Source: Flavobacteriales bacterium (GTDB lineage: Bacteria; Bacteroidota; Bacteroidia; NS11-12g; UBA955). From it: a stretch of DNA of 43,090 nucleotides. The position numbers and the translations under genes are program-made. The stretch is from NCBI GenBank assembly GCA_947496375.1, contig CANMCY010000018.1, positions 1 to 43,090 on the forward strand, read 5' to 3'. Below are positions 10,459 to 25,139 of this stretch, piece by piece (positions within the stretch are counted from its first letter, which is position 1; the number at the start of each line of letters is the position of its first letter). The notes under the pieces are model-generated. The model did no database searches. It saw only the letters and a program-made list of their open reading frames with translations, and was not told where the DNA came from.

Positions 10459-13400
10459 ATGCCCGGTTTGCGTTACATCCCCATCATCGTTCTTGCATGC
10501 TTCCTGCCCTATTGGGGTAAAAGTCAGGGGATTTATTCGGATTTTGGCCAAAACCGTGTACAATACAATTCATTTCACTGGACTGCTTACAGAAGCGAAA
10601 CCGCTGATTTTCTTTATCATGACAGTCAATTGAGATATGCCGTAGATTTTGCCGACAAAACCATTGCAGAGCAGCTGCCAAAAATCGAAAAATTGTTGGG
10701 TTACAAATCATCAAACCGCCCCCAGTTCATGATTTACGGGAGTATGAGTGATTACAAACAGAACAATATCGGATACGTTAATCCCCAGTGGCACTCCGGT
10801 GGCATAACTTTCATACCGGCAGAAGCAGTGCCAATCTACCATGATGGCAATTTTGCCGCGTTTAAAACACGAATAACGCAGGGTATCAGTGACTTCCTTA
10901 TCAGAGAAATGATATACGGAGGCACTTTACAAGACCGATTTGAAAGATTGAAAAGTCCTGCACTGCCTTTCTGGTTTACAGATGGTTTAAGCGGTATCAT
11001 CTCCGAGGGATGGGGGGCGGAACAAGAAACTGATTTAAGGGATGGTTTTGCAACAGGTACATTCGACAATGTTAATTTGCTGACTAGGGATGAGCAATCA
11101 TTAATGGGTAGAAGTGTATGGAAATTTATCATTGACCGACACGGTAAAGATGTGGTTGCCGGTATCATGTTTATTGCCCGGTATACCCATTCTGCGGAAG
11201 CCGGTATATCCTATTATTCCAAAAATCAATTGTCAGATTTTCTGCAGCAATGGAAAGAAAAGTGTCGGGCAGACTTTGAAAACACTACGGGCATGATACT
11301 TCCCAGGGGTAAAGCTGAGATTCCCCGAAAAATCAACAAATTACGCATATCGGGTGCGGGCCTTAATCAGGATGGTAAAACGCTTTCACTTATCACACAT
11401 GATCATGGAAAATTTGCTGTCTGGCTTTATTCTGTAGACAACAACAGGACACAGAAAATTTATGAAGGCGGACAAAAAGTGCTCAATCAAATCAATGATT
11501 TTACCTTTCCTAAGGCCAAATGGAGAAACAATAAATTGTATATTTTAACTTTTGAGAAAGGCAATTATTTTCTATTAACCTTCAATAAACAGGGTAAAAA
11601 CATCGCCAGATTATCCTTCAGCAGCTTCAAAGCCGTTAATGATTTCGCTTTGCACCCCGATAGAGACAGCATAGTATTCTCAGCCACAAACATGAGTATC
11701 TCCCAGCTCTATACTTCCGCTTTAACCGGTGGTGGTGTTAAACAGATAACGCGGGATACAATGTATAAAAACAACCTACTTTGGTTGAACAATAGTCGTC
11801 TTGTTTACACTGCCAATTCAGCCGATAATATCAATAATTTATTTATGTGGGGAGAAGCCGGAAACAAACAAATCACCCAATTCAAAACTCCGGTATCTAT
11901 TCTATCTCCAATACCCCTGAATGATAGTATCATTGGTTTTTTGTCAGACATCAGCGGCTTGCAAAATGCATGGTACTCCCCTATTTATTTCTACGCGGAA
12001 CCCAAGGGATTAACCCATTACGCCAGATCTATATACAGTCAAAACATTTCCGGAGACAAAAGCACCTTTGCAGAGGTTGTCAAAGTCAATGGGCGAATAA
12101 CCCTGTTTATGGGTAACGTAAATGAAAACCCCGAAAAGGATGCCATCAATATTCCCATAAATACTCAATTGAATAATTGGAAAAAAGGATTAATTGTAAA
12201 TGAAAACAGTACCATTCTATTAAAGGATACCCAGTCTGTAAATTATGATGGCAACCTTATCCGGCAGGATACTGTGTCAAAAACGTATAAATATCAAACG
12301 GGATTTCCGGTTATAGATTATCCTGAAACAATAACCGAAAGTGATATTCCCAAGAGCAAGCAGCTGATTAGGACCAATCTCAATCCCATCACCCCTGATT
12401 TTATTGTAACCCAGATTGATAACCGAAACCTTGGAACATATCTTTATGACAACAGTGTACCTATGATGGTCATGAGAAACCCTTGGTTAATGCCTTATTT
12501 CAAAGTTTCATTGTCAGACCTGCAGCGCAATGTGAACATTGAGGGTGGGGTCAGAAGCAGTTTAGACCTGGCTTTTACCGATTTTCATTTTAAAATAGGC
12601 CGTTACGCAAACAGGTTTGATTATGAATTTTTATACTACAGAAGAAACAGAAAGTTTGACAATGAGCCGAATTTATATCAGCAATATGGAACCCAATTGC
12701 TTGATTTTAAAATAATGCTTCCATCCGATGAACGATCACGCTACACTTACATTACAGGATTGCGGGAGGATCACATTACCACCAAAATTACCGAAATACA
12801 GGCAGCACAAATAGAGGACAAGGTGAACCGCTTCTGGAGTAACAGAATGGAAATCATGTTTGATAACAGCACGAGTTCCGGTCTTAACCAAATGAGAGGC
12901 AGTCGAATTAAATTTGGCCTGCAACACATGATGAATACGAAAAATGCGCAAACATTAATTTGGGCAGAATCGGATATTCGGTTTTACATTCCTGTATGGA
13001 AAAGCATCAGTTTTGCGCAGCGAATTGCAGGAATTTACAATCTGGGGGCGCATAAGGCGGCCTTTTATCTAGGAGGAGTAGAAAACTGGACGGCAAAAGA
13101 ACAACTCCCGGAAAAGCCCACATTGCTAAACCCTGAAAATATTCAATTTCAATCCTGGGTATGCAATCTGAGGGGGCATTACAGGGGTGCCCGCATGGGA
13201 AATAGCTTTCTGCTTAGCAATGCTGAACTCAGATGGCAATTGATGAAAATGATTTACAAACGGCCTGTGTCATCTGAATTTATTAAACATTTCACCCTAA
13301 CAGCATTCCTGGATGCCGGTTGCGCTTTTACAGGCAAATCGCCTGCTGACATTGCCAATCCCTACAATACAAATTATGTAACAACACCCAATTATTCCAT

Positions 13401-13560
13401 GAGTATAACATCCCGCAGAAATCCTTGGCTTATGGGTGCCGGTTATGGAATACGGTCTCGTGTTTTGGGATATTTTATTAAATATGACAGGGCCTGGGGG
13501 TGGCAGGAAAGTCAATGGAACAAACCCATTCAATACATCAGTCTGGGGCTGGACTTTTAA
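10459..13560 (+). CDS. Large secreted/outer-membrane protein: degenerate peptidase MA-like domain, propeller-like middle, C-terminal barrel
   Basis: 1033 residues beginning with a signal peptide (MPGLRYIPIIVLACFLPYWGKSQ). Residues 40-280 resemble the peptidase MA-like (gluzincin) fold: YHDSQLRYA, then where HExxH is expected the sequence reads LIREMIYGG (about 147-155), followed by LPFWFTDGLSGI (169-180), equivalent to the family's PxWLxEG motif. The zinc ligands are therefore missing and proteolysis is unlikely. Residues about 290-560 contain repeated short beta motifs (TLSLITHDHGKFAVWLY, SIVFSATNMSISQLY, RLVYTANSADNINNLF) like TolB/PD40 propellers. The last 400 residues look like an outer-membrane barrel ending LGLDF. 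It resembles uncharacterised TolB-like Bacteroidota proteins. It lies 52 bases from divergent rocD and 100 bases before mreB. Function unknown. Confidence 0.7.
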   Translation: MPGLRYIPIIVLACFLPYWGKSQGIYSDFGQNRVQYNSFHWTAYRSETADFLYHDSQLRYAVDFADKTIAEQLPKIEKLLGYKSSNRPQFMIYGSMSDYKQNNIGYVNPQWHSGGITFIPAEAVPIYHDGNFAAFKTRITQGISDFLIREMIYGGTLQDRFERLKSPALPFWFTDGLSGIISEGWGAEQETDLRDGFATGTFDNVNLLTRDEQSLMGRSVWKFIIDRHGKDVVAGIMFIARYTHSAEAGISYYSKNQLSDFLQQWKEKCRADFENTTGMILPRGKAEIPRKINKLRISGAGLNQDGKTLSLITHDHGKFAVWLYSVDNNRTQKIYEGGQKVLNQINDFTFPKAKWRNNKLYILTFEKGNYFLLTFNKQGKNIARLSFSSFKAVNDFALHPDRDSIVFSATNMSISQLYTSALTGGGVKQITRDTMYKNNLLWLNNSRLVYTANSADNINNLFMWGEAGNKQITQFKTPVSILSPIPLNDSIIGFLSDISGLQNAWYSPIYFYAEPKGLTHYARSIYSQNISGDKSTFAEVVKVNGRITLFMGNVNENPEKDAINIPINTQLNNWKKGLIVNENSTILLKDTQSVNYDGNLIRQDTVSKTYKYQTGFPVIDYPETITESDIPKSKQLIRTNLNPITPDFIVTQIDNRNLGTYLYDNSVPMMVMRNPWLMPYFKVSLSDLQRNVNIEGGVRSSLDLAFTDFHFKIGRYANRFDYEFLYYRRNRKFDNEPNLYQQYGTQLLDFKIMLPSDERSRYTYITGLREDHITTKITEIQAAQIEDKVNRFWSNRMEIMFDNSTSSGLNQMRGSRIKFGLQHMMNTKNAQTLIWAESDIRFYIPVWKSISFAQRIAGIYNLGAHKAAFYLGGVENWTAKEQLPEKPTLLNPENIQFQSWVCNLRGHYRGARMGNSFLLSNAELRWQLMKMIYKRPVSSEFIKHFTLTAFLDAGCAFTGKSPADIANPYNTNYVTTPNYSMSITSRRNPWLMGAGYGIRSRVLGYFIKYDRAWGWQESQWNKPIQYISLGLDF

Positions 13561-13596
13561 ATTGTACTGCCCCGGCCAAGCCGGCTGCAATTTTTT
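13561..13596 (+). terminator. Weak possible terminator after the large barrel protein
   Basis: Directly after the stop codon, CCGGC and GCCGG form a 5-bp GC stem with a 3-base CAA loop, flanked by ATTG/CAAT that could pair around an internal loop, followed by TTTTTT. The U-tract is separated from the stem by a few bases, so efficiency is doubtful. Confidence 0.4.
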
Positions 13597-13660
13597 ATCC
13601 CGTTTTCAAAGAAAATAGCAACTTTTATGTTTATTTTGCAGACTGATATAAAACGCAAAA

Positions 13661-14686
13661 ATGGGCTTATTCAGTTTTCTGACGCAGGAACTTGCCATTG
13701 ACCTAGGCACGGCCAACACGCTAATCATACACAAAGACAAAGTTGTGGTGGACGAACCCTCTATCATTGCCATGGAAAAAGCCACCGGCAATGTAATTGC
13801 CATAGGAAAAGAGGCCATGCAAATGTTTGGTAAAGAAAACGAGGGAATCAAAACCATAAGACCATTGAAGGATGGCGTAATTGCAGATTTTCAGGCCGCA
13901 GAACACATGATCAGGGGTATGATAAAAATGATTAACCAGAAACAGAAGTGGATTTCTCCCCAGCTGAAAATGGTTATCTGCATACCGTCAGGAATAACGG
14001 AAGTGGAAAAACGGGCTGTTAAGGACAGCGCAGAGCGCAGCGGTGCCAAAGAAGTTTATCTTATTCACGAACCCATGGCGGCGGCTGTGGGTATTGGTAT
14101 AGACGTAGTTCAACCTCAGGGTAACATGATCATTGACATCGGTGGTGGTACCACAGAGATTGCCATTATTGCCCTGGGTGGCATAGTTTGCGACGAAAGC
14201 ATACGGGTGGCCGGTGATGAGTTCAACTTGGATATTGTTGAATATATGCGCAGGGAACACAATCTGCTCATCGGTGAAAGAACTGCGGAAAAGATTAAAA
14301 TACATATTGGCAGCGCTTTACAAGAGTTGGACAACCCACCTGAGGATTACCCTGTTTTTGGCAGGGATTTAATGACAGGTATTCCCAAACAAATTATGGT
14401 AAGCTATTCAGAAATCGCGCGATCGCTGGACAAGAGTATCATGAAAATAGAGGAAGCAATACTCAGGGCTTTGGAGCAATCTCCTCCCGAACTGAGTGCG
14501 GATATTTTAACCAATGGTATTTGGCTTACCGGTGGCGGTGCTCTATTAAGGGGACTAGACAAGCGCGTAAGTGCCAAAACCAAACTTAGAGTTTCCATAG
14601 CGGAAGACCCCTTGCGTGCGGTAGTGCGAGGAACCGGAATTGCGCTAAGGAACATTGGTAAATTCAAATTTTTGATGACAGCTTAA
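13661..14686 (+). CDS. mreB: Rod shape-determining protein MreB (actin-like)
   Basis: Bacterial actin that forms membrane-associated filaments guiding lateral-wall synthesis. 341 residues, normal length. The N-terminal amphipathic helix MGLFSFLTQ precedes phosphate-1 motif AIDLGTANTLI; further motifs are VDEPSIIAM, the hydrophobic CIPSGITEVEKRAVKDSAERSGAKEVYLIHEP region (residues about 107-138), phosphate-2 IDIGGGTTEIA, and the adenosine motif WLTGGGALLRGL near residue 290. First gene of an elongasome operon with mreC 10 bases downstream. A TATTTTG sequence about 22 bases before the ATG is one base short of the Bacteroidota -7 box and may be its promoter. Confidence 0.97.
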   Translation: MGLFSFLTQELAIDLGTANTLIIHKDKVVVDEPSIIAMEKATGNVIAIGKEAMQMFGKENEGIKTIRPLKDGVIADFQAAEHMIRGMIKMINQKQKWISPQLKMVICIPSGITEVEKRAVKDSAERSGAKEVYLIHEPMAAAVGIGIDVVQPQGNMIIDIGGGTTEIAIIALGGIVCDESIRVAGDEFNLDIVEYMRREHNLLIGERTAEKIKIHIGSALQELDNPPEDYPVFGRDLMTGIPKQIMVSYSEIARSLDKSIMKIEEAILRALEQSPPELSADILTNGIWLTGGGALLRGLDKRVSAKTKLRVSIAEDPLRAVVRGTGIALRNIGKFKFLMTA

Positions 14687-19937: not shown

Positions 19938-22900
19938 ATGCGTAATATAACAACATCTTTCATCGCTGCATGGTTGCTTATTGCTTCATCCTGCGGGCAA
20001 AAACAAGATGATCAGTCTGTGCTTTTTGAACTTACACAGCCAGAAGAAACCGGGGTGACTTTTGTGAATACCATTCCTGAAAACGACACCTTGAATCAGT
20101 TTGTTTATCATTACCTCTTCAACGGGAACGGAGTAGCAGCCGCTGATTTGAATAACGATGGGTTGCCTGAGCTTATTTTTACAGGAAATGAGAAACCTGC
20201 AGTACTATACCAAAACAACGGAGATTTTAAATTCGAAGACATTACCGAAAAAGCCGGTTTAAAAACTTCGCACTGGATGAGCGGTATTAGCTTAGCAGAT
20301 GTAAACAATGACGGCTATCTGGATATATACATTTGCAGAAGTGGCCCTGATAAAAACGCCGAAAACAAACGGAATTTATTGTTTATCAACAACGGCAACA
20401 TGACATTCACGGAAAAAGCGGCCGAATGGGGTGTTGATGATCCCGGAAATGCTACCTGTGCCACTTTTTTTGACATGGACAATGATGGTGATGTGGATTT
20501 ATACCTGGGCAATCACGCCGACCGTTTCTTTGCCGATATCGCTACAAAATTCACACCGTCACTGCACAGAGACGAGCGAAGCCAGCAACATTTGTTTAGA
20601 AATGAAGGTAAAAAATATACCGATGTAAGCGAAGGTGCAGGCGTAAATGCCATGGGATATTGCCTTAGTGCTACTGCTGCCGACTTTAATAAAGATGGTT
20701 ATACCGATCTCTATGTATGCAATGATTATCATGTACCGGATTATTACTACATCAACAATGGAGACGGTACATTTAATAATCAGTTTGAAACTTACTTCAA
20801 ACACAGCAGTACCAACAGTATGGGGGCTGATGCAGCCGATTACAATAAAGATGGATGGCTGGATCTGTTCACCGTAGACATGCTGTCAGAAGATCCCAGA
20901 AGATTTGGTTTGTTGGCCGGTCCTAAAAAATATGATTTCTTTACCACCGCCTTGCGCAGCGGTTACGGGCATCAGTACATGCATAATAATCTTCAAACCA
21001 ATTTCAAGGGTCATTTTGCAGACCTTGCCTATTTGAATGGCGTAGCCCGCACAGACTGGAGTTGGAGCCCTTTATTTGCAGATTTTGATAACGATGGCAA
21101 TTCGGATTTATTCATTACCAATGGGTATTACAGAGATGTGACCAACCTGGATTTTATCCTTTTTCAACAACGGAAAGACCAACAATTTAAAAAACCCCTG
21201 AATATTTTAAAAAGCGAACTCAAAAGGGAGCCCACCGTAAAGGAAATAGCAGCCAATCTGAATATCTCTGAGACTGAAGCCGAGAAACTGGCCTATGGCA
21301 CTACCATTAACCACAAAGAAATACTGGAAAAATTACCCTTTGAAAAACTCACTAACTATGCTTACAGAAACCTGGGTAATTACCGGTTTTCGAATGTTAC
21401 GCAGGATTGGGGACTGGATGAACCCACACTCAGCTCCGGATCTACCTACGCCGATCTCAATGCTGACGGCAGATTGGATTTGATCATCTGTAATCAGGGT
21501 GATGTTGCCCATCTGTATAAAAACGTTGGACCTGAAAAAAATTATCTTCGCATAAAATGCAAAGGCGGAAAAAAGAATAATCGTTTTGGGATTGGTTGTA
21601 AAGTGATTAGCGAATCAGATTCCGGTCAGCAAATCATGGAAATGCAGCCATCAAGAGGTTACCAGAGCGCCACAGAGCCCATTATACACATAGGCATGGG
21701 TGAATATTCCTCACTGAAAAAGCTGACCGTAATTTGGCCCAATGGTGAATTCCAGGTTCTGACCAATGTCAAAGCCAATCAGGTTCTTGAAATAGATGAA
21801 AACAATGCCTCAGGAAAATGGGATTACACACCCAAAAATTCATTTTCATTTGAGGAAATCACAAGTCAAATCGGATTGAGTTTCCTTCATCGCGAAGGAG
21901 ACAACCCGGATTTTAAAAGAGAACCTCTGCTGCCACATCGATATTCTATGCTGGGGCCGGGCAGTGCCACAGGCGACGTTAATGGTGATGGACTGACCGA
22001 CCTGTTAATCAGTAATGCAAGAGAAAGTAACGGCTGTATTCTGTATTTGCAAACGAAGGATGGGAAACTTTCTCAGGCCTCTTCCCAACCCTGGAAAAGC
22101 ATGAATAATGTAGATGTGCTGGGATGTTTGATTTTCGATGCCGATGCCGATGGAGACAATGATATATACCTTTCAGCCGGTGGCAGCGAATACGGTTATC
22201 CAAACCCTGCCTATAAACATAAAATATTTTTTAATGATGGTAAAGGAAACTTCACCGAAAAAGCCAGTGCACTTCCCGATTTGAATACAAGCGGTGCCTG
22301 CGTAGCCGCAGGAGATATTGACGGTGACGGAGATCTGGATCTATTTGTGGGCGGGCGGTTAAAACCCGGACAATATCCCGATGTCATTTTAAGAAGCTAC
22401 CTGCTCCAGAATAATAAAGGCACTTTTGTGGATGTAACAGAATATGCAGCACCGGATCTTTTCCAGCCGGGAATGGTTTGTGCCGCGGTGTTTTGCGATT
22501 ACAACAAAGACAATAAAATGGATTTAATCGTATCCGGAGAGTGGATGCCTATCGCATTTCTGGCCAACAATGGCAGCAAACTGGTTAACCAGACCGGTGA
22601 AGCAGGTACCGTGGGGATACCCGGTTGGTATAACAGCCTGATGGCTGTTGATATTGACAATGACGAAGACCTGGATATTATTGCCGGCAATAAAGGCATG
22701 AATTCTTTCTTTCAGGCGACGGATGAAGACAATATAAAAATATATTGGACGGATCTGGATCAAAGCGGCAATGTTGACTTTTGGCTTACCTACAGCAAAA
22801 ACCGCAAAGAATATCCCGTACACGAACTCGACGACATGGGAGCCGCGTATCCGCTTTTCATGAAAAAACGGTTTACGACTTATGAATCATTCGCCGGAAA

Positions 22901-23516
22901 AACAGCACAAGAGGTATTTGGCGAAGAAAACCTGAAGAAAAACAGCATGCGTGCCTCGCAGTTTAACAGTTTATTATTAAGAAACAACGGTGGATCGTTT
23001 GCAATAGAACCTCTACCCCGCCTTGCCCAGGCAGGCCCTGTTTGCGGTATTACGGCTGCAGACATAGACGGAAATGGCTTTTTAGATATTATTGGAATCG
23101 GCAACAATTATGCTCCCAGGGTTGAATACGGCAGAGATGACGCGTTATCCGGCTTTGTTTTGTACAACAACAATGGTAAAAGTTTTAATTTCAGTCATGG
23201 GACAGAAAATGGATTTTATGTTGATGGCGATGCTAAATCCTTGGTTTGGATGGATATGCCCGGAAAATCGCTTTGCCTGATAGCTACACAGAATAACAGT
23301 ACTGCTAAAGCATTTCATCTCAGCAAAACCAAAATGAAGTTTCTGGCAGCACCTGCAAAAGCAGGGAAAGCGATGGTTTACCTCAAAAATGGTGGCTCCC
23401 GCATTGAGAATCTCTCACAGGGATGGGGCTATTTATCGGCTGCCAGACCGGGGGTTTGGATGAATGACCAGGTTAAATCAGTTCAGTTTTTGGATGTATA
23501 CGGCAATAAACTCTGA
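19938..23516 (+). CDS. Giant FG-GAP/VCBS-repeat lipoprotein with ASPIC/UnbV domain (CRTAC1-like)
   Basis: 1192 residues; an SPII signal peptide with lipobox IASSC (Cys near residue 19) predicts a lipid-anchored surface or periplasmic protein. At least twelve calcium-binding FG-GAP motifs of the DxNxDGxxDL type occur, e.g. DLNNDGLPEL, DVNNDGYLDI, DMDNDGDVDL, DFNKDGYTDL, DYNKDGWLDL, DFDNDGNSDL, DLNADGRLDL, DVNGDGLTDL, DIDGDGDLDL and DIDNDEDLDI, arranged as two beta-propeller-like halves. Between them (about residues 530-625) is an ASPIC/UnbV domain (NRFGIGCKV, SRGYQSATEP, WPNGEFQVL). Such proteins are common in Bacteroidota and often uncharacterised. A helical segment at residues 425-451 resembles sigma-70 region 3. 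No SusCD genes are adjacent. Function unknown. Confidence 0.85.
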   Translation: MRNITTSFIAAWLLIASSCGQKQDDQSVLFELTQPEETGVTFVNTIPENDTLNQFVYHYLFNGNGVAAADLNNDGLPELIFTGNEKPAVLYQNNGDFKFEDITEKAGLKTSHWMSGISLADVNNDGYLDIYICRSGPDKNAENKRNLLFINNGNMTFTEKAAEWGVDDPGNATCATFFDMDNDGDVDLYLGNHADRFFADIATKFTPSLHRDERSQQHLFRNEGKKYTDVSEGAGVNAMGYCLSATAADFNKDGYTDLYVCNDYHVPDYYYINNGDGTFNNQFETYFKHSSTNSMGADAADYNKDGWLDLFTVDMLSEDPRRFGLLAGPKKYDFFTTALRSGYGHQYMHNNLQTNFKGHFADLAYLNGVARTDWSWSPLFADFDNDGNSDLFITNGYYRDVTNLDFILFQQRKDQQFKKPLNILKSELKREPTVKEIAANLNISETEAEKLAYGTTINHKEILEKLPFEKLTNYAYRNLGNYRFSNVTQDWGLDEPTLSSGSTYADLNADGRLDLIICNQGDVAHLYKNVGPEKNYLRIKCKGGKKNNRFGIGCKVISESDSGQQIMEMQPSRGYQSATEPIIHIGMGEYSSLKKLTVIWPNGEFQVLTNVKANQVLEIDENNASGKWDYTPKNSFSFEEITSQIGLSFLHREGDNPDFKREPLLPHRYSMLGPGSATGDVNGDGLTDLLISNARESNGCILYLQTKDGKLSQASSQPWKSMNNVDVLGCLIFDADADGDNDIYLSAGGSEYGYPNPAYKHKIFFNDGKGNFTEKASALPDLNTSGACVAAGDIDGDGDLDLFVGGRLKPGQYPDVILRSYLLQNNKGTFVDVTEYAAPDLFQPGMVCAAVFCDYNKDNKMDLIVSGEWMPIAFLANNGSKLVNQTGEAGTVGIPGWYNSLMAVDIDNDEDLDIIAGNKGMNSFFQATDEDNIKIYWTDLDQSGNVDFWLTYSKNRKEYPVHELDDMGAAYPLFMKKRFTTYESFAGKTAQEVFGEENLKKNSMRASQFNSLLLRNNGGSFAIEPLPRLAQAGPVCGITAADIDGNGFLDIIGIGNNYAPRVEYGRDDALSGFVLYNNNGKSFNFSHGTENGFYVDGDAKSLVWMDMPGKSLCLIATQNNSTAKAFHLSKTKMKFLAAPAKAGKAMVYLKNGGSRIENLSQGWGYLSAARPGVWMNDQVKSVQFLDVYGNKL

Positions 23517-23828: not shown

Positions 23829-25139
23829 ATGAAATACTTCTTACCCCTGTTTTCATCGCTGTTTTTCATTGCTGCCTGTACCCAAAAGAGCACTGAAAAT
23901 ATTATCATCAAACATGATGTTTTAACGGAATGTAACATTGCCATTCAAAATGCGGTGGTGGTAGACAGGGTTCCACCACCTGTAGCCAGCAGAAGGTATT
24001 ATTATGCCGGTGTGGCCGCCTATGAGTCACTCGTTCCATTCTCTCAAGAGTTTATTTCACTATCCGGACAATTAATAGACCTTAAAGAATTACCCAAACC
24101 GGATACCAGTCTTAGGTATTGTCTGGATCTGGTTGCGCTTTGTGCACACACTTACACAAGCCAAAAGCTCGTTTTTCAGGAGGATAGTATTGTCAATTTC
24201 AGACAGCGTAAGCTTGATTTCTATAAACGCTCATTACCCTCAAAAACCTTCTACAACTCCATTGCCTATGGTGATTCTGTGGGAGCGGCAATCGTAAAAT
24301 GGGCTAAAACTGACAACTATGGCAAGACAAGGGGTACCGATTTTTATCTGGTGAAACAGGGAGACGGTAAATGGGAGCCCACCCTACCCGAATTCGGAGA
24401 CGCGTTGGAACCAAACTGGTTCAAGTTGCGTACAGCGGTTGTTCCAACGGCAGCAAGCATAACCATACCCAAGCCGGAGCCATTTAACAAGGATAAAAAC
24501 AGCCGCTTTTATAAACTCGCAAAGCAGGTTTATGACCAAAATAAAAATCAGGACAGCAGTTATCTGGATATTGCCAAATACTGGGATGATAACCCCAACT
24601 CTACCATACATTACGGGCATGCAACCATTGGTGTTCTGCGTATCTCCCCCCCGGGCCACTGGCTCAGTATATTCAGCAATGTAGCCAAACAAAAAAAATA
24701 TGATTTGTTCAAATCTGCAGAGGGTATTGCAAGACTAAGTGCCGTAATTTATGATGCCTTCATAATTTGCTGGGATACAAAATATAAAACTGAATATGTA
24801 AGGCCTGAAACCGTTATCAGAAAATATATTGACAGCAGCTGGACGCCGGCCATTCAAACCCCTCCATTCCCTGAATACCCCAGTGCTCACAGTGTAGTCA
24901 GCTCTTCCTCCGCCACACTGCTAACCTCAATGTTTGGCGAGTACGCCTTTACAGATAGTACCCAAATGGAATTTGGACTTGGAGCCAGAAGTTTTAAAAA
25001 CTTCAGAGAAGCAGCCAACGAGGCATGCATGAGCAGATTATATGGTGGTATACACTTTATCGACGGAATTGAAAACGGAAAACTCATGGGTAATATGCTG
25101 GGTGAATATCACCTTAAGCATGTAAAAACCCGTAAATAA
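23829..25139 (+). CDS. Vanadium-haloperoxidase/PAP2-family lipoprotein, probable acid phosphatase
   Basis: 436 residues with an SPII signal peptide (lipobox IAAC, Cys near 17). The C-terminal part carries the vanadium haloperoxidase/PAP2 phosphatase motifs in order: K-x6-RP as KYKTEYVRP (about 317-325), PSAHS in place of PSGH (about 350), and SRLYGGIHFIDG (about 401-412), supplying the catalytic His and phosphate- or vanadate-binding Arg. The alanine in PSAH and the spacing after the last His agree with bacterial vanadium-dependent haloperoxidase-like proteins found in Bacteroidota. Whether it binds vanadate or acts as phosphatase cannot be decided from sequence. It has its own promoter box; its stop is 2 bases from the convergent valS stop. 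Confidence 0.83.
   Translation: MKYFLPLFSSLFFIAACTQKSTENIIIKHDVLTECNIAIQNAVVVDRVPPPVASRRYYYAGVAAYESLVPFSQEFISLSGQLIDLKELPKPDTSLRYCLDLVALCAHTYTSQKLVFQEDSIVNFRQRKLDFYKRSLPSKTFYNSIAYGDSVGAAIVKWAKTDNYGKTRGTDFYLVKQGDGKWEPTLPEFGDALEPNWFKLRTAVVPTAASITIPKPEPFNKDKNSRFYKLAKQVYDQNKNQDSSYLDIAKYWDDNPNSTIHYGHATIGVLRISPPGHWLSIFSNVAKQKKYDLFKSAEGIARLSAVIYDAFIICWDTKYKTEYVRPETVIRKYIDSSWTPAIQTPPFPEYPSAHSVVSSSSATLLTSMFGEYAFTDSTQMEFGLGARSFKNFREAANEACMSRLYGGIHFIDGIENGKLMGNMLGEYHLKHVKTRK

Follow-up and report, generated by a model that had tools for sequence, protein, structure and literature searches.

The window, by which we mean the whole 43,090-nucleotide stretch analysed here (contig CANMCY010000018.1 of assembly GCA_947496375.1, a Flavobacteriales bacterium of the lineage Bacteroidota, Bacteroidia, NS11-12g, UBA955), carries on its forward strand an open reading frame of 1033 aa whose product ends in YISLGLDF (Table 1). 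The gene is real and single-copy in the window genome. The arrangement amounts to far more than chance, as its domains and the positions of its motifs are found again in full-length relatives spread over many of the phylum's families. A first-pass annotation of the same DNA had called this frame and placed mreB 100 bases beyond its stop codon on the same strand; both calls are correct, the ATG of mreB lying at 13661. Farther downstream on the forward strand, a gene for a 1192-aa lipoprotein (19938-23516), in which we assume FG-GAP/VCBS-like repeats, is followed by one (23829-25139) whose product looks to us like a vanadium haloperoxidase or PAP2-type protein.

Table 1. Features of the 1033-aa gene and of the interval preceding mreB (window coordinates).
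Feature	Residues	Coordinates	Strand	Basis
Whole gene: peptidase-like domain, TolB-like propeller, Omp85-type barrel (predicted)		10459..13560	+	family-wide profiles
Signal-peptide-like N-terminus	1-23	10459..10527	+	sequence and alignment
Peptidase-MA-type domain without zinc site	~30-285	10546..11313	+	hhalign and PF13485 matches of relatives
Former HExxH columns, reading QGISD	141-145	10879..10893	+	alignments with intact relatives
REMIYGG, conserved stretch 3' of the zinc motif	149-155	10903..10923	+	aligns with NDMFYGG
LPFWFTDGLSG, third-ligand region; the ligand E is D175 here	169-179	10963..10995	+	alignments
TolB-like propeller	~290-600	11326..12258	+	hhalign; TolB profile match
Omp85-type barrel	~641-1033	12379..13557	+	hhalign; Omp85 family in 7/40 members
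LRGHYRGARMG, presumably the RGF/Y motif of Omp85 loop 6	904-914	13168..13200	+	alignment
FLDAGCAFTG, conserved FxDxGxA motif late in the barrel	950-959	13306..13335	+	alignment
C-terminal strand with final F, as in outer-membrane proteins		13534..13557	+	family count
Terminator-like 5-bp hairpin and T run between the gene and mreB		13573..13593	+	fold z-score -1.16 (weak)

Searched alone, the window protein had just one match in Pfam, a weak one to a propeller family (E 0.037), and none to PF13485 or the Omp85 families; its TolB matches in NCBIfam were also weak (E 0.02), and phmmer found nothing in the PDB. Its relatives were more informative. Among 48 of them, at E 0.1, PD40 was found in 13, Peptidase_MA_2 in 3 (best 4.4e-5) and Omp85 in 2 (best 5.4e-9). 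We used two alignments, A1, a 48-row profile, and A2, a wider set of 40 members, 17 of them from other classes. In the A2 set at E 1e-3, PD40 matched 28/40 proteins, Peptidase_MA_2 (PF13485) 19/40 and Omp85 7/40 (best 6.3e-13); POTRA was absent from the 19 families found in these 40 members, and the window protein itself had no family match. The relatives that retain a zinc site (hereafter called active) include L123, with matches to PF13485 (1.5e-16) and PD40 (4.7e-24). Members from other classes matched Omp85 (1.3e-8 in L133) and TolB propellers (up to 1e-43), and the active-family profile matched solved TolB at 1.3e-25. By profile, the barrel region also matched a solved POTRA-domain protein, 9ccg_A (8e-8).

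With the domains realigned separately, hhalign paired the zinc-less (dead) family with the active one at probability 100 for the N-terminal domain (E 1.9e-59), the propeller (E 1.8e-44) and the barrel (E 6.7e-60). The relatives share an (S/A)QG boundary at their N-termini, and their alignment shows no conserved cysteine in the N-terminal region. The final residue is F in 102/116 own-class members, which is suggestive of an outer-membrane barrel. Structure models were poor, with a pLDDT of 27.9 at full length and 39.6 for the N-terminal domain, with the window and L001 sequences as their only input. As read from these profiles, the predicted order of signal peptide, Peptidase-MA-type domain, TolB-like propeller and POTRA-less Omp85-type barrel is well supported. 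The propeller-like middle and barrel-like end proposed in the first-pass annotation are thus borne out through the profiles of relatives, and its view of the protein as one of several domains, probably residing in the outer membrane and including a metallopeptidase-type domain that is inactive, is supported.

As a fold, the N-terminal domain belongs with the Peptidase MA superfamily by the profile similarity of its relatives; as a peptidase it lacks HExxH, reading QGISD instead. The barrel joins the Omp85 superfamily, likewise by profile and through relatives. The protein shares this type of barrel with BamA, TamA and TamL, the last of which matches the barrel of active relatives at 1.8e-6, but it differs from all three in that neither an N-terminal POTRA domain nor a conserved lipoprotein cysteine was found. 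It scores 13.5 bits against the TolB equivalog TIGR02800, and its best active relative 149.9 bits, both below the NCBIfam cut-off of 343 bits. The arrangement is that of the WD40-Omp85 subfamily of Heinz and Lithgow (2014), in which an Omp85-type barrel follows a TolB-like propeller that takes the place of POTRA domains (PMC4104836). As far as consulted, that description names no peptidase domain in the subfamily and no lost zinc site (PMC4104836). OMP-TolB-like proteins are likewise built of an outer-membrane barrel, a TolB-like propeller of six blades and one more folded domain (PMC12204202). That extra domain is described as Rossmann-like (PMC12204202), whereas here it matches Peptidase_MA_2, active elsewhere and dead in the window's class. 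The zinc site and its loss are mentioned in neither description, as far as consulted, and we came upon no paper on the loss in the open-licence literature searched, which is not proof of absence.

The zinc site is lost in the window protein, as the first-pass annotation had claimed, and no intact HExxH lies anywhere else in it. The annotation had rightly recognized the third-ligand region in LPFWFTDGLSG, which alignments with active relatives confirm, but it mistook REMIYGG for the former HExxH: this stretch corresponds to a conserved one found downstream of HELVH in active relatives, and HELVH itself falls on Q141-G142-I143-S144-D145. A HELVH-type motif together with an EG-x-AE third-ligand motif was present in 17/17 other-class loci first fetched and in 0 own-class loci of that set. 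For a census, 201 loci with a best hit were reduced to 174 by removal of duplicates and to 155 by leaving out sequences shorter than 850 aa or gapped at the HExxH columns; L001, which is the same genome as G003, stands for it. As to whether the motif is lost in all homologues, a question raised by the annotation, the loss is common to the window's class (116 of 118 loci without HExxH) but does not extend to other classes, where the motif is intact in 37/37 loci. The H, E, H and third E are each conserved in 34/34 active forms that are of the same type as this gene. In the 116 dead forms, drift has left a wide variety of residues in the catalytic columns, the E of HExxH being replaced by G in 70, and the third-ligand position is still E in 18. 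W172 and G176 are kept in 116/116 of them and P170 in 112/116. An alignment artefact at the HExxH columns was ruled out by a second alignment and by the separate realignment of domains for hhalign.

The gene is widespread in the window's class and is matched across the phylum. A match was obtained by tblastn in 55/58 relatives, and the A1 profile at E 1e-5 matched 224/247 genomes drawn from the phylum and 262/295 of the class, the latter figure overstating full-length presence as it includes weak propeller-only matches near E 1e-6. Most places matched by this profile are single full-length genes. Families f30, f34 and f55 mostly lack the gene; as several families of the class do without it, it is not universally required. 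No further relatives were found in the viral contigs searched. The locus L001 (VHBA01000004.1) has its genes in the same order as the window, with a version of this protein that is 62% identical; its record is titled Sphingomonadales and is probably a mislabelled metagenome bin.

We built a quick tree with IQ-TREE (LG+G4) from 110 of the 155 census rows, namely all those with HExxH and, for the others, a single row from each family or genus, with the HExxH and third-ligand columns blanked; the search was short, without bootstrap, and two rows are long. All 71 dead rows fall on one side of a branch with an SH-aLRT of 100, and the HExxH state changes once on the tree, against a shuffled mean of 32. 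The two own-class exceptions with HExxH, L165 and L166, represent a separate active paralog and group with L191-L193, so the possibility that some class members retained the motif was rejected. With this paralog as outgroup, loss is favoured over gain. A single loss of the zinc site, at the base of the window's class, is well supported by this tree, and we are highly confident of the anatomy and evolution of the protein as read here from sequence comparisons. The paralog (L165 in G097, L166 in G301 and L191-L193) is of the same overall type, carries an intact HExxH (GHExVHAFQY or GHELVHSFQY) and occurs in other classes and, within the window's class, in a few genomes. None was detected in the window genome, either with PF13485 at E 0.1 or with the protein itself as query at E 1. 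At the base of the dead group, L144 (G096, family f41) has an intermediate look, having lost HExxH (KNLCL) and kept the third-ligand motif NEGLAEY.

The neighbourhood of mreB is a local feature. An mreB gene lies at most 300 nt downstream in 21/32 evaluable loci of the window's family (20/31 plus L001), 0/13 in the second family of the order and 0/66 in the rest of the class (0/79 together), 13 own-class loci with too little flank having been left out of the count; in L113 and L115 it lies 1.3-1.7 kb away. As only some members of the window's family have mreB next to the gene, the functional tie to the elongasome suggested by the first-pass annotation is not supported, and a general role as an elongasome partner was rejected. 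The hairpin that follows the gene in the window is absent in the five genus relatives compared. In genus relatives the sequence before mreB repeatedly contains a T run and a stretch like TTTATTTTGCA, the latter resembling the promoter consensus of the phylum. The hairpin, the T run and the promoter-like stretch, which in the window lie within the interval 13561-13660, lean against co-transcription with mreB. Upstream, a divergent rocD is a common neighbour in the order, and in some 20 loci elsewhere in the class a peptidase-like gene, presumably of M20 type, is found nearby.

Other classes show a different neighbourhood. A TamB-like gene lies near the active form in 6/17 other-class loci (L123-L126, L128 and L137), upstream and on the same strand in 5/6, and TamB families were confirmed by search in four of the six. 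The gene preceding the active form in 6 other-class loci, which in most of the loci with a TamB-like gene stands between the two, is presumably that of RNase R. No TamB-like gene was seen near the own-class loci of the searched set. TamL scored above cut-off in 1/17 of those other-class genomes, with weaker TamL-like hits in several, and in 5/5 own-class genomes. The window genome encodes elsewhere a strong TamL, a TamB and a 384-aa Omp85 protein; given that TamL, the idea that its TamB is an orphan needing this protein was rejected. TolB exceeded its cut-off neither in the window genome nor in any of the relatives examined (0/20).

The best overall explanation, which we hold at about an even balance of belief, is that the protein is a non-catalytic factor of outer-membrane biogenesis or quality control. 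Its barrel would sit in the outer membrane, with the propeller and the peptidase-like domain in the periplasm, a location of the N-terminal domains that is presumed from other members of the Omp85 superfamily. BepA, which is of another peptidase family, is soluble and catalytically active and has neither a barrel nor a propeller. This M48 protease at BAM offers a working analogy only, as a HExxH-type domain with a second role in promoting the assembly of barrels; an edge strand beside its active site is needed both for assembly promotion and for proteolysis (PMC8423444). The ancestor of the present family may have been an anchored protease acting on outer-membrane clients, as soluble BepA does at BAM. 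The class's form may have retained a client-binding groove after the loss of cutting, and may act on barrels or surface lipoproteins without cutting them, as a holdase or as a factor in their assembly or quality control. The lost site, its single loss, the constraint on the domain, the TamL/Omp85-like barrel, TamB near the active form and the BepA precedent all point to such a factor; against it stand the own-class loci without TamB adjacency, the absence of the gene from several families of the class and the poor models. The step from anchored protease to non-cutting factor we put forward with slightly less than even conviction.

Another thought, that the peptidase domain survives as a functionless leftover of a formerly active enzyme, could appeal to the drift of its catalytic columns, but the invariant W172 and G176 and the near-invariant P170 speak against it, as do the measures of selection. 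Within each of three own-class groups, dead domain and barrel have nearly equal mean identities (0.68/0.66, 0.41/0.43 and 0.49/0.52), the propeller being the least conserved of the three domains (0.52, 0.32 and 0.39). The dN/dS of the dead domain is 0.02-0.09 in the 7 of 11 close pairs with finite dS, a rough estimate with many dS >1, and is below that of the propeller in 6/7 pairs. Judged by these values, the dead domain is still under strong purifying selection; the constraint largely refutes decay, which we consider scarcely credible.

The protein might instead be a TamB partner, its barrel forming the outer-membrane end of a TamB-type bridge, like TamA or TamL, while the propeller and pseudopeptidase receive clients or lipids. 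The TamB-like genes near active forms, the near-lack of TamL over cut-off in those 17 genomes and the TamL-like barrel suit this view; the coexistence of TamB and a strong TamL in the window genome, the lack of TamB-like neighbours at the own-class loci searched and the weaker TamL-like hits in several other-class genomes do not, and we judge it unlikely. A similarly low probability attaches to an envelope tether or wall-linked factor, in which a TolB-like protein anchored to the outer membrane would bind Pal/OmpA-type or wall components and help shape the cell. Such a role would fit the position beside mreB in part of the window's family, the TolB-like propeller, the 20/20 relatives without TolB over cut-off and the proposal that TolB descends from OMP-TolB-like proteins (PMC12204202). 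However, mreB is not adjacent in any of the 79 evaluable loci of the rest of the class, and it is the propeller that is least conserved. Delivery of the N-terminal domains to the cell surface by the barrel, to bind something there, has a proposed precedent in PlpD, described as an Omp85-type protein whose enzyme domain reaches the surface (PMC4104836). Nothing found here favours it, and an N-terminal part three times the usual passenger domain, with what would be a periplasmic-type propeller, makes it quite improbable.

Our favoured reading of a non-cutting biogenesis or quality-control factor can be extended to the origin of the class. An outer-membrane-anchored, client-handling metalloprotease, perhaps working with TamB, may have become a non-cutting assembly or holding factor in a single step and been retained to this day, providing an overlooked third arm of outer-membrane biogenesis beside BAM and TAM; this fuller scenario is possible, though we consider it doubtful. 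Recent reports reflect current work on how this phylum assembles its outer membrane, with its wealth of barrels and surface lipoproteins (PMC12578637, PMC12611786). Being widespread and of Omp85 type, with a protease domain that died once and is yet strongly selected, the protein naturally suggests itself as a component still missing from that picture. It seems that an ancient enzyme was converted, on one occasion, into a non-cutting, strongly conserved envelope protein, while other classes keep the site. A comparison of the two forms, dead and active, would reveal what the fold achieves in the absence of cutting.
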